Below, in pieces: positions 11,785-15,882 of a DNA stretch of 40,565 nt (the first letter of the stretch is position 1; each line of letters opens with the position of its first letter). The position numbers were made by a program, and so were the translations under genes. Under the pieces are notes generated by a model that saw nothing but the letters and a program-made list of their open reading frames with translations, was not told the DNA's origin and ran no database searches. Source of the DNA: Thermoplasmata archaeon (GTDB taxonomy: Archaea > Thermoplasmatota > Thermoplasmata > Thermoplasmatales > Thermoplasmataceae); NCBI GenBank assembly GCA_021822985.1, contig JAKAPZ010000007.1, positions 1 to 40,565 of the forward strand, written 5' to 3'.

Positions 11785-13047
11785 ATGGGTAAATTAAGCA
11801 GAAACGTATATATGGTATCAGGAGGCGTAACCAAATTTACAAAAGCGTCCCCAGATATGGATTTCAGGCTTAGAGTGAAAAAGGCCTTTGATTATGCCAT
11901 GAATGATGTGAACATGGAATTGAAGGATATTGATGGTTCAGTCGCATCATATTTCTCAGATCATTTCCAGAGGCAATTGATGTCTGGAGTTATGGTTCAG
12001 GATTATCTCGGATTGACTCCAAAACCAAGCCGAAGAGTTGAGGGCGGAGGAGCAACTGGTGGCCTTTCGTTTCAGGCCGGAGTAGAGGAAATCGCTTCAG
12101 GAAGAATGGATACATGTGCAGTCTACGGTTTTGAATCGATGTCTCATGTTAATACATGGAAGGGAAATGAATTCATTGCACTCGCAAGCGATACAAATTT
12201 CGACTATCCTGTCGGTGGATTTTACACTGGATATTATGCTATGATGGCTGCAAGATATTTGCATGAATTCGGTGCAACGGTAGAACAACTCGCACAGGTT
12301 TCAGTGAAGAACCATAAAAACGCACTTTCGAACCCATATGCCCAGAGCCCGATGAATCTTACAATACAGGATGTCAGAAATTCACCAATGGTTTCTTATC
12401 CTCTAACAAGGCTTGATGTGTGTGCAATGTCAGATGGTGCTGCTGTTGCTATTCTTGCTGACGAGAAGAGAGCATTCGAACTTTCTGACAATCCCGTACT
12501 CGTGAAAGGAATTGGCAGTGGAACAGACACAATGAGACTTGCAGACAGGCCCTTCGGCAAAGTTCCTCTTTTAGCACATGAGAAGGAAAGCGACTATAAG
12601 AATCTCAAGTATCCGGGAGTTCACTCATTCAGGGCAGGCCGAACTGCAGCTGCAGAAGCATATAAAAATGCTGGCATAACCAACCCGATTGAAGAGATAG
12701 ACGTAGTGGAGCTTCATGACGCGTATACCTCCTCAGAGATACAGACATATGAGGATCTTGGGTTGTGCAAATATGGTGAGGGAGCAAACTTCGTATCAGA
12801 AGGCAAAGCTGATCTAAAGGGAAAAGTTCCTGTAAACCCGTCAGGAGGTCTACTTGCCTGTGGCCACCCGGTAGGTGCAACAGGAATTATGCAGGCAGTA
12901 TTCGTGTTCTGGCAGTTGCAGAGAACAATCAAGAAGCACTTCGGAAACGACAAGTTGCAGATATCAAACCCGAAGAGAGGCCTTCTCCACAGCCATGCAG
13001 GCACGGGAACTTATGTAACAGTTTCAATAATGGAGGCGGTAAAATGA
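11785..13047 (+). CDS. Thiolase-fold protein (SCP-x type), nucleophile Cys replaced by Gly
   Basis: The 420-residue protein has the SCP-x-type thiolase plan: RRVEGGGATGGLSFQAG (residues 83-99), VELHDAYTSSE (308-318) and the catalytic-histidine loop ACGHPVGATG (358-367). In true thiolases the first segment reads like VExxCATG, with the acyl-accepting cysteine. Here that residue is Gly89, clear in the DNA (GGC GGA GGA GCA). Classical acetyl-transfer chemistry is therefore doubtful. A thiolase-fold aldolase of the Ltp2 kind, which also works with a DUF35 partner, is a good alternative; a scaffold role is another. Its stop overlaps the ATG of the DUF35 gene, so the two products are probably made together and form a complex. 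I withhold a gene symbol. Confidence 0.85.
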   Translation: MGKLSRNVYMVSGGVTKFTKASPDMDFRLRVKKAFDYAMNDVNMELKDIDGSVASYFSDHFQRQLMSGVMVQDYLGLTPKPSRRVEGGGATGGLSFQAGVEEIASGRMDTCAVYGFESMSHVNTWKGNEFIALASDTNFDYPVGGFYTGYYAMMAARYLHEFGATVEQLAQVSVKNHKNALSNPYAQSPMNLTIQDVRNSPMVSYPLTRLDVCAMSDGAAVAILADEKRAFELSDNPVLVKGIGSGTDTMRLADRPFGKVPLLAHEKESDYKNLKYPGVHSFRAGRTAAAEAYKNAGITNPIEEIDVVELHDAYTSSEIQTYEDLGLCKYGEGANFVSEGKADLKGKVPVNPSGGLLACGHPVGATGIMQAVFVFWQLQRTIKKHFGNDKLQISNPKRGLLHSHAGTGTYVTVSIMEAVK

Positions 13048-13538
13048 CAATAGATTATAATGCAAAGATGCCTGAAAAACAGGACGGAACACAGGTGTAT
13101 AACACTGATCCACTTATAGTGAAATCCCATTATGAGATAGATTATATACACAGTTATGCACAGGACTCAGAGTTTTTCAGGGCAATGGGAAAGAAGAAGC
13201 TCATGGGAAGCAAGTGCAAAAAATGCTCCTATACTTACGCAACACCGAGATCACATTGCATGATGTGCGGAGCTGAGACTGAATGGTATGAACTCCCGAA
13301 GGAAGGCAGAATACACACTTTCACAACCTGCTATTTTGGAAGTGAAGCATTTCTGAAGGAAACACCATTCAACCTAATCATGGTTGAATTCGAAGGTGTC
13401 GACTCACTGTTCATGTCGAGACTCATTGGTGCAGAACTGGAAGACATGAAAGTTGGAATGAAGGTCAGGGCAAGATTCAAGAGGAACCTGGAGTTCAGCC
13501 CAACAGATGTTTACTTTGTGCCTGTTGAGGAAAAATGA
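13044..13538 (+). CDS. DUF35 OB-fold protein with rubredoxin-like zinc ribbon
   Basis: The 164-residue protein has a Cys4 ribbon (C58, C61, C72, C75, in KCKKCSYTYATPRSHCMMCG) followed by an OB-fold (about residues 80-160). DUF35 proteins bind acyl-CoA or bridge thiolase-fold enzymes, as in the archaeal thiolase/HMG-CoA synthase complex and in Ltp2-type aldolases. The start codon overlaps the previous stop (ATGA), and its own stop overlaps the ThyX start in the same way. No HMG-CoA synthase gene is adjacent, so a mevalonate role is not supported by this window. Confidence 0.92.
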   Translation: MTIDYNAKMPEKQDGTQVYNTDPLIVKSHYEIDYIHSYAQDSEFFRAMGKKKLMGSKCKKCSYTYATPRSHCMMCGAETEWYELPKEGRIHTFTTCYFGSEAFLKETPFNLIMVEFEGVDSLFMSRLIGAELEDMKVGMKVRARFKRNLEFSPTDVYFVPVEEK

Positions 13539-15019
13539 GCGAAAACCAAAAAACCAATTTTTTTTCCAACAACGACAGGAATGTTTTTATTTTAAGTTCT
13601 GGCTCCCAACTTGATCGTGGGGCCCTTTTATCCAGATACAGCAGGGCTGCAAATCCTGACATAAGGGATCTTTTTGAAAAGGAGTTTCTTTCCAACCCCG
13701 ACAGAGGAAAGGAATTCTATGAAAAGATATTCCTTGAATACGGTGATGAATCAGTTGCTGAACTTGTAAGCGTCCAGATGGGATTGCAGAACATATCTAA
13801 CGTTGCTGCCAAGATCATAGAAACAGGAAGAATAGGGCTGTCATTCCTTGAAAAATCATCAAGATATGTGAGATATGATAAGAAATATAATGGCAGGTAT
13901 CTGTATCTGGATTTTGAGAAAACAGGTTTAAATGAAAAATTTAAGCAAAGGTATGTAGATCTTATGGATCAAATGTTTGATTTCTATTCTTCTTCACTGC
14001 CTAAAATCAACGATCTCTTAATGGAAAAATATCCTTTTAGTATGTTTGGAAATGAAAATGATGCAAATGCCGAAAAGGCGTACAAATCTGCCATTAGGGC
14101 AAGATCTCTTGATGATATAAGGGCAATTCTTCCCGCATCCACGCTAACAAACATAGGTGTTTCAGGAAATGCACGTTCATACATTTCCCTTATACAGAGG
14201 CTTTCCTCGACAGGAATGAAGGAAGCAAAGGAATTATCTGATTTGATATATGCAGAACTTGATCCGGATTATGGACAGATAATAAGATCTTCCAGAAACA
14301 TTCATGGTAAAAAATATGTGGAATATCTCAGTAACAGAAATTTAGGATTCCAATACACCGAAAGAAACCAGGATTCATACTCTACTATCATGAGCTACAA
14401 TAAATGGAATCTTGATCACATAACGGAACTCATGGGAATGAATGGAGCAAACAGGGATGAATTCATTTATAAGGCTGCAGCCATGAGAACAAACCGTAGA
14501 GATAAACTTCCAAGAATTTTCGAATTTGTGGATATAACTTTTTTACTGAAGATGAATTATGGCATATTCAGGGAGTTCCAGAGGCATAGATTCATGAGCA
14601 TTGTGAGGGGAAATTTAATGGCTGATCTTAGTTATGATATACCTGAATTTGTAAAAATTGATTCAGGAATAAAGGATCAGTTTGTGGGCCTAGTTGAAAG
14701 TGCAATAGCATTAAACAGGGAGATAATCAAGGAAAGTAATGACAGCAGGGCAGCACAGTACGTTCTTCCGATGTGCATCAACCATCAGATGGTTGTACAC
14801 ACAAACCTGAGGGAATTAAGTTATTTCGCGGAACTCAGGACAACACCACATGCCCATGATGATATCAGGAATCTCGCACTGTCCATGGTAAGGGATTTTA
14901 TCTCGCTGGAACCCGAATGTGAACCCCTCTTCAAATTCATGGACACCGGTTCATATCCACTAGGAAGGTTTTACCAGGAATACAGAAAAGAAAAAAAGAT
15001 GGAAAGGCACCGCTCATAA
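13535..15019 (+). CDS. thyX: Double-length ThyX-like flavin-dependent thymidylate synthase
   Basis: The 494-residue protein is about twice normal ThyX length and appears to hold two ThyX-like domains. The C-terminal half has QRHRFMS (RHR at residues 350-352) and NLRELSYFAELRTTPHAHDDIR, close to the standard dUMP/FAD site, but lacks the SxRY end of the motif. The N-terminal half has lost RHR yet keeps a SFLEKSSRYVRYD segment (103-115) and a weak LPASTLTNIGVSGNARSYISL copy (199-219). ThyX methylates dUMP to dTMP using methylene-tetrahydrofolate, FAD and NAD(P)H. The signature seems divided between the halves. It overlaps the DUF35 gene by four bases. Whether it is active, or which half binds FAD, cannot be told here. 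Confidence 0.82.
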   Translation: MSENQKTNFFSNNDRNVFILSSGSQLDRGALLSRYSRAANPDIRDLFEKEFLSNPDRGKEFYEKIFLEYGDESVAELVSVQMGLQNISNVAAKIIETGRIGLSFLEKSSRYVRYDKKYNGRYLYLDFEKTGLNEKFKQRYVDLMDQMFDFYSSSLPKINDLLMEKYPFSMFGNENDANAEKAYKSAIRARSLDDIRAILPASTLTNIGVSGNARSYISLIQRLSSTGMKEAKELSDLIYAELDPDYGQIIRSSRNIHGKKYVEYLSNRNLGFQYTERNQDSYSTIMSYNKWNLDHITELMGMNGANRDEFIYKAAAMRTNRRDKLPRIFEFVDITFLLKMNYGIFREFQRHRFMSIVRGNLMADLSYDIPEFVKIDSGIKDQFVGLVESAIALNREIIKESNDSRAAQYVLPMCINHQMVVHTNLRELSYFAELRTTPHAHDDIRNLALSMVRDFISLEPECEPLFKFMDTGSYPLGRFYQEYRKEKKMERHRS

Positions 15020-15162: not shown

Positions 15163-15882
15163 ATGGGAACAAAGCATAGTTATCTGGAAGATCATTATAG
15201 AAAAGAGGGAAAAGGCAACGTTACGTTCGTAGAATTCACCGATCTGGTGGTAGACGATTCCATACTGTATCCAACATCTTATGGACAGCCAAACGACAAG
15301 GGTTCTATTTTCATAGATGGAAAGGAGTTCGAGATCGTGGATGTATGGGATGATGGAGAGGGCATTCATCTGATCTCACACGACACTTATCCTCAGGATG
15401 CCAAGGGAAAGGAGGTCACACAGCATCTTGACTGGAACACAAGGTACAATCACATGAAATTCAGGACAGCCATGAGAATAATGGCGGGAATTGCATTTGA
15501 AAAATTTGGGGCCACTCACAGGATAAACCAGACTTATGAGGATTATTCATGGATTGATCTAGAGTTCAACGGAATAACAGAAGAGGCAGTCAGAGAGATC
15601 GAAACAGAAACGAATAAGATTCTAAAATCTGGCGTTGAACCTGTTTACAGGTATCTCAGCAGAACAGATTTCATGAAGGATGAACATCTCATGTCCATAA
15701 CCAAATCCAAGGTTCCGGATATTCCCGAAATAAGGGTTGTGAAAATTGGCAATCTTCCTGAGATGATGGAAATGGGAACTCTCAACGCTAATACGAATGA
15801 AGTGGGCGAGATAGTTTTGAAGACAAACCTCGTAAAAGGAAAAGTTGGAAGCAGGGTGAATGTTTCATTAAAGAAAGCATGA
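15163..15882 (+). CDS. AlaX-like alanyl-tRNA editing domain protein without metal ligands
   Basis: The 239-residue protein matches AlaX (free-standing AlaRS editing domain): an N-terminal DDSILYPTSYGQPNDKGSI (canonical FYPxGGGQPxDxG) and HLDWNTRYNHMKF (canonical LDWxxRxxHM). AlaX hydrolyses Ser- or Gly-tRNA(Ala) using zinc held by HxxxH and CxxxH. Here these read R101-T-A-M-R105 and E203-M-G-T-L207, so all four ligands are replaced. Either the protein works without zinc or it has another role, such as tRNA binding. It lies alone, with a hairpin terminator downstream. The ATG at 15163 gives a normal N-terminus; the two ATG codons just upstream are in other frames. Confidence 0.82.
   Translation: MGTKHSYLEDHYRKEGKGNVTFVEFTDLVVDDSILYPTSYGQPNDKGSIFIDGKEFEIVDVWDDGEGIHLISHDTYPQDAKGKEVTQHLDWNTRYNHMKFRTAMRIMAGIAFEKFGATHRINQTYEDYSWIDLEFNGITEEAVREIETETNKILKSGVEPVYRYLSRTDFMKDEHLMSITKSKVPDIPEIRVVKIGNLPEMMEMGTLNANTNEVGEIVLKTNLVKGKVGSRVNVSLKKA

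Follow-up and report, generated by a model that had tools for sequence, protein, structure and literature searches.

How can a flavin-dependent thymidylate synthase (ThyX) function when neither of its two domains carries the complete signature motif? This question is raised by a gene on contig JAKAPZ010000007.1 of a Thermoplasmata archaeon (NCBI GenBank assembly GCA_021822985.1), of which positions 1 to 40,565 of the forward strand (40,565 nucleotides, hereafter the window) were analyzed. An intact open reading frame (ORF) on this strand, running from an ATG at position 13535 to a stop codon that ends at 15019 and overlapping the stop of the upstream gene as ATGA, encodes a 494-amino acid (aa) protein that consists of two fused ThyX domains. 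The protein is very probably the cell's flavin-dependent thymidylate synthase, a duplicated and fused ThyX with interdependent halves; paired chains would form a pseudo-tetramer in which two sites are composite and two dead. Activity probably requires the active-site parts of both halves to be combined.

Fused domains and a divided motif

Two stretches of the protein match Thy1 (135 bits, against a gathering cut-off of 24.8 for Pfam PF02511), which places it in the Thy1 superfamily; its score for the NCBIfam thyX equivalog TIGR02170 is 84.2 bits, below the curated cut-off of 87.9. An AlphaFold2 run with three close sequences gave a predicted local distance difference test score (pLDDT) of 38 and was discarded. 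With 28 diverse sequences as input instead, the model of the single chain reached a pLDDT of 91 and a predicted template modeling score (pTM) of 0.86. All 50 matches listed in a Foldseek search of the PDB are ThyX chains, each spanning approximately one half of the model (TMt up to 0.70, about 200 columns), as expected for the ThyX fold, and a search of a predicted viral library returned one 461-aa protein that aligned along the full length of the double ThyX (TMq 0.74).

Alignment with single ThyX sequences revealed that the RHR...SxRY motif is contiguous in neither domain. The N-terminal half (N-half) reads T97-G98-R99 at the place of RHR and retains S103-F-L-E106-K-S108-S-R110-Y111, the ExSxRY loop that binds deoxyuridine monophosphate (dUMP) and forms the lid. 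The C-terminal half (C-half) retains R350-H351-R352 and the substrate helix ELR435TTPHAHDDIR and has lost SxRY. RHR is thus found in the C-half only and SxRY in the N-half only. The initial annotation had described a double ThyX with its signature divided in this manner, the C-half having RHR and the substrate helix without SxRY and the N-half lacking RHR but keeping an S..EKSSRY-like segment, and the alignments agree with each part of that description, with the nuance that the N-half still has the final Arg of the motif, as R99.

The division is conserved. The retained catalytic residues are invariant in all 57 full-length doubles from the same order (families f1, to which this archaeon belongs, and f4, another family of the order; f- and L-labels denote families and loci of this analysis), and therefore the split did not arise by chance. 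All readable copies that were sampled, from two archaeal families, show it. If 28 diverse doubles are aligned, 14 columns are invariant (R37, S73, E106, S108, R110, R196, L199, P200, E230, R350, H351, Y409, L434, and R435); seven of these are named residues of the site, and R196 may be an eighth. Against an 83%-identical relative (locus L063), the ratio of nonsynonymous to synonymous substitution rates (dN/dS) is about 0.12 overall, with separate values for the halves and the linker in Table 1. Both halves are under purifying selection, and the complementary loss is a conserved design rather than decay.

The double ThyX is also the sole detectable thymidylate synthase of this archaeon. Its metagenome-assembled genome (MAG; 81% complete, 119 contigs) contains no second Thy1 match and no ThyA (PF00303), and the flavin-contacting residues are retained by sequence comparison; the initial annotation had named a second complete thyX or thyA, together with loss of flavin contacts, as evidence that would speak against its proposal. 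ThyA exceeded the cut-off in none of the 101 genomes searched from the order; thymidine kinase was present in one of 31 relatives and dihydrofolate reductase (DHFR) in none of them. In a class-wide sample, the f1 and f4 genomes with a Thy1 match have only the two matches of one double gene, including single-contig genomes that are 99% complete, and the other families of the order (f2, f3, f32, and f33) have one ordinary ThyX each. Genome G300, from the same family as this archaeon, encodes two different double ThyX genes on contigs C51 and C43 (51% and approximately 55%/40% to the window gene), which are either paralogs or the product of 3% contamination.

Sorting of site residues by subunit role

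In the homotetrameric enzymes, according to a review of the Mycobacterium tuberculosis (Mtb) and Helicobacter pylori structures, each site is built by three subunits: in one Mtb site, subunit A contributes RHR95-97 and Arg199, B contributes Ser71 and Arg190, and C contributes Arg87, Ser105, Arg107, and the lid residue Tyr108 (PMC6514825). Similarly, Ser88 and Arg182 of one site are on different monomers in the structure of Paramecium bursaria chlorella virus 1 (PBCV-1) ThyX (PMC3498832), and His53 of the Thermotoga maritima (Tm) enzyme is contributed by a third monomer (PMC11940539). If a fused dimer divides this work, its residues are expected to be distributed according to subunit role, whatever their position. 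This expectation was examined in 109 doubles from archaea, bacteria, and phages, the pattern having first been seen in 39.

The A-role residues R95, H96, R97, and R199 are present in all 109 C-halves, with Arg95 in only five N-halves. The B-role Ser/Thr71 is found in 108 N-halves and in no C-half. For the C-role residues Ser105, Arg107, and Tyr108, the counts are 109, 109, and 106 in the N-halves as opposed to 5, 6, and 15 in the C-halves. Arg172, for which the sources do not state a role, is kept in every N-half and no C-half. As judged from the alignments, the residues segregate between the halves according to their subunit role in the homotetramer site. Since the retained sets alternate along the sequence (S71 in the N-half, RHR in the C-half, SxRY and R172 in the N-half, R199 in the C-half), simple truncation of one half cannot explain the split. 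Within the single chain from this archaeon, residues of all three roles are present (A: R350, H351, R352, and R435; B: S73 and R214; C: S108, R110, and Y111).

Several observations weigh against a clean division. The 109 doubles are related by ancestry, and because conservation reflects that ancestry, the counts are not 109 independent tests. The C-role Arg87 is kept in only 21 of the 109 N-halves and is N89 in this protein, whereas the B-role Arg190 also persists in 65 C-halves in addition to 99 N-halves. At Arg199 the N-half alignment is ambiguous, with Arg in 37 of the 109. Two viral doubles do not have the lid Tyr, and a Microcoleus phage has Phe at this place. Doubles of f1 and f4, this chain included (D71), have Asp in place of the active-site His (Tm His53). 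Finally, four of the seven N-halves from archaea of family f42 still have RHR, and thus the split is incomplete in some doubles. The Asp found in all f1 and f4 doubles in place of the folate-stacking His53 is the same change as in the studied H53D mutant (4kar), and may mean that another one-carbon carrier is used.

Table 1. Features of the double ThyX gene in the window (residue numbers refer to the 494-aa protein).
Feature	Position	Strand	Basis
Whole double ThyX gene (494 aa); fusion of two Thy1 domains that have lost complementary parts of the active site	13535-15019	+	ORF, Pfam, AlphaFold2, Foldseek
N-half, residues 1-265; subunit-B and subunit-C role residues kept, RHR lost	13535-14329	+	Alignments; dN/dS ~0.09 vs L063
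S73 = Mtb Ser71 (flavin adenine dinucleotide (FAD) contact from subunit B), within GDES	13751-13753	+	Ser/Thr in 108/109 N-halves, 0/109 C-halves
D71, occupying the position of the active-site His (Tm His53)	13745-13747	+	N-half alignment
T97-G98-R99, degenerate RHR of the N-half	13823-13831	+	Arg95 equivalent in only 5/109 N-halves
SFLEKSSRY, residues 103-111, retained dUMP/lid loop; E106, S108, R110, Y111 = Mtb Gln103, Ser105, Arg107, Tyr108	13841-13867	+	Ser and Arg in 109/109, Tyr in 106/109 N-halves
R196 = Mtb Arg172 / Tm Arg147	14120-14122	+	109/109 N-halves, 0/109 C-halves
N212-A-R214; R214 = Mtb Arg190 (FAD contact from subunit B)	14168-14176	+	Arg in 99/109 N-halves, 65/109 C-halves
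Linker, residues 266-290, fastest-evolving stretch	14330-14404	+	dN/dS ~0.45 vs L063
C-half, residues 291-494; subunit-A role residues kept, SxRY lost	14405-15016	+	Alignments; dN/dS ~0.14
R350-H351-R352, intact RHR (FAD phosphates, isoalloxazine)	14582-14590	+	109/109 C-halves
Q408, replacing Mtb Arg172 / Tm Arg147	14756-14758	+	Invariant in 57/57 f1/f4 doubles; Arg in 0/109 C-halves
R435 = Mtb Arg199 / Tm Arg174 (uracil contact from subunit A)	14837-14839	+	109/109 C-halves

Predicted assembly and competing explanations

Having sorted the residues by role, we infer an assembly in which two 494-aa chains would pair as a pseudo-tetramer arranged like the tetramer of ThyX. In each live site, FAD would rest on the RHR and Arg435 of one C-half, Ser73 and Arg214 would come from one N-half, and the other N-half would supply the lid loop that binds dUMP (E106-x-S108-x-R110-Y111), giving one FAD and one dUMP per chain. 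If subunit A of a tetramer with 222 symmetry is a C-half and B and C are N-halves, D would be the other C-half. Both C-half sites (A and D) would then be complete, since a C-half would supply RHR and the two N-halves Ser71 and SxRY, while the sites on B and C would be dead, as they would require RHR of an N-half and Ser71 and SxRY of a C-half, all of which are lost. Two double chains would be required, because both N-halves and one C-half would contribute to each site, and the role assignment predicts exactly two composite sites per two chains. The losses would fall in the dead sites, the missing residues being those useful to these sites alone. The initial annotation had proposed that a fused dimer with complementary damage could rebuild one composite site per pair. 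The role-sorted residues, the single thymidylate synthase gene, and the preserved flavin contacts favor such composite sites, and the stoichiometry would be refined to two double chains per assembly with two sites between them. The f42 archaea, in which C-halves lack SxRY and most of the N-halves have RHR, suggest an order of events in which the C-half would have lost SxRY before the N-half lost RHR. This order is an inferred part of the scheme, as are the pseudo-tetramer and catalysis at composite sites.

Other explanations of the locus were considered. The protein could be a non-catalytic or repurposed ThyX relative, such as a regulator, an RNA-modifying enzyme, or a methylase of another pyrimidine, with thymidine monophosphate (dTMP) coming from elsewhere. 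The score below the NCBIfam thyX cut-off, the Asp at the site His in f1 and f4, and the faster evolution of the gene relative to its neighbors are consistent with such a role, and ThyX paralogs with other substrates exist, for example PolB (PMC5954106). We consider this reading improbable, as no other thymidylate synthase was found in this genome or, above the cut-off, in the order, thymidine kinase occurs in just one of the 31 relatives, and the FAD- and dUMP-binding residues are the very ones that are invariant. Still less probable is that one half pairs with copies of itself to form complete sites, the other being a structural passenger. Enzyme fusions in which one domain is dead are common, and the N-half of some f42 archaea has both RHR and SxRY. 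Neither half of the window protein has the full set, however; across the 109 doubles Ser71 and Arg172 are in no C-half, SxRY is gone from nearly all C-halves, and Arg95 is gone from 104 N-halves, and purifying selection acts on both halves. That the split reflects a redundant or dying gene in decay, or an artefact of assembly, can be given almost no weight: the MAG is incomplete and fragmented, but the same architecture is present in single-contig genomes of 99% completeness and across f1, and these genomes, the low dN/dS, and the invariance of the key residues in all 57 relatives exclude both.

The double ThyX gene closes an apparent operon (window positions 11785-15019) with overlapping stop and start codons, in which it follows genes for a thiolase and a ChsH2-like OB/zinc-ribbon protein. 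This arrangement is kept in several f1 genera and was not seen in f4. The double ThyX diverges far faster than its operon neighbors: relative to locus L064 its identity is 62%, as opposed to 93-94% for the thiolase and OB-fold genes, and relative to L063 it is 83%, with 97% for the thiolase and 93% for the OB-fold gene (dN of 0.114 for the double ThyX, 0.015 for the thiolase). Downstream, positions 15163-15882 encode a 239-aa protein that matches the class II alanyl-tRNA synthetase family below threshold and may be an editing protein of the AlaX type.

Distribution, origin, and relation to known systems

Doubles of the same polarity were identified in other Thermoplasmatota (families f15, f24, f42, and f29), on plasmids of Paenibacillus, Bacillus, Parabacteroides, Euzebya, and Thermomicrobium (bacterial doubles were sampled from plasmids only), and in many phages and IMG/VR contigs of up to 529 kb. 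Viral scans with queries P0002 and A4 resulted in no match, and a scan of genome contigs identified two close relatives only. Three candidates, L128, L133 (f13), and L141 (f25), each have two Thy1 matches but were rejected as doubles, as they are single ThyX proteins with an intein-like insert, located between RHR and SxRY in L128 and L133 and before RHR in L141. Two viral double-ThyX ORFs, L171 and L173, begin with the apparent C-terminal end of an intein.

In a tree of the halves from which the motif columns had been removed, all N-halves form one clade (98/98 support, 97% of bootstrap trees). The C-halves form one clade in the best tree, weakly supported (59/84), some branches are very long, and many C-halves share a PRxFE-type signature. 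With one clade for each half, a single old duplication is the likely source of the doubles. Several independent origins, with the same division of labor reached by convergence, would concern the origin of the enzyme and not its working; the weak clustering of C-halves from distant groups and the very long branches leave some room for them, but the robust N-half clade, the single C-half clade of the best tree, and the signature common to many C-halves make them unlikely. We think there is good reason to regard the double ThyX as a distinct, ancient, and widespread branch of thymidylate synthases, found in archaea, several bacterial phyla, plasmids, and large phages. Duplication and fusion of a homotetramer, followed by role-sorted complementary loss, would have led to an obligate pseudo-heterotetramer in which half of the active sites remain, and at least two archaeal families would have no other thymidylate synthase.

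Compared with known systems, the protein shares its fold, FAD and dUMP residues, presumed reaction, and multi-subunit sites with ThyX/FDTS (PF02511, EC 2.1.1.148; e.g. TM0449 and Mtb ThyX). It differs in length (494 aa compared to about 230), in that neither half contains the whole RHR...SxRY motif, in the Asp at the site His, and in its predicted sites, of which two would be composite and two dead, as opposed to four equal ones. A domain-duplicated ThyX of Chloroflexi was noted as uncharacterised in 2009 (Valas and Bourne, PMC3224940), and the Thermomicrobium double analyzed here has the same split; that paper contains no residue analysis or mechanism, and the present double is archaeal and the sole thymidylate synthase found. 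The doubles of large phages (Tunturi_5, BONAISHI, and Vme Yong) and the thymidylate synthase family phrog_36506 (491 positions) have the same architecture and motif split, but they are viral, approximately 20-30% identical, and their hosts may supply another enzyme. A documented parallel is the monomeric herpesvirus dUTPase, in which an oligomeric enzyme was duplicated and fused, motifs were lost, and one site was rebuilt from two domains (PMC12524310), as the sequences suggest for the double ThyX. It is an unrelated protein for which one chain suffices, whereas two are expected here because each site would use both N-halves. In a full-text literature search covering few subscription journals, PMC3224940 was the only paper on the fusion, which is thus known, and no description was located of the complementary, role-sorted degeneration in a double ThyX or of how widely it occurs.

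ThyX is essential and serves as a target for antibacterials. A double found in nature, with half of the sites predicted to be lost and the A and the B/C roles on separate domains, would allow each residue to be mutated in one role alone, which is impossible in a homotetramer. The split would also account for annotated thymidylate synthases of large phages and plasmids that do not have the textbook motif in each domain. The double ThyX would be a clear natural case of complementary degeneration making the subunits of an oligomer interdependent, with the f42 N-halves that have RHR as apparent intermediates.
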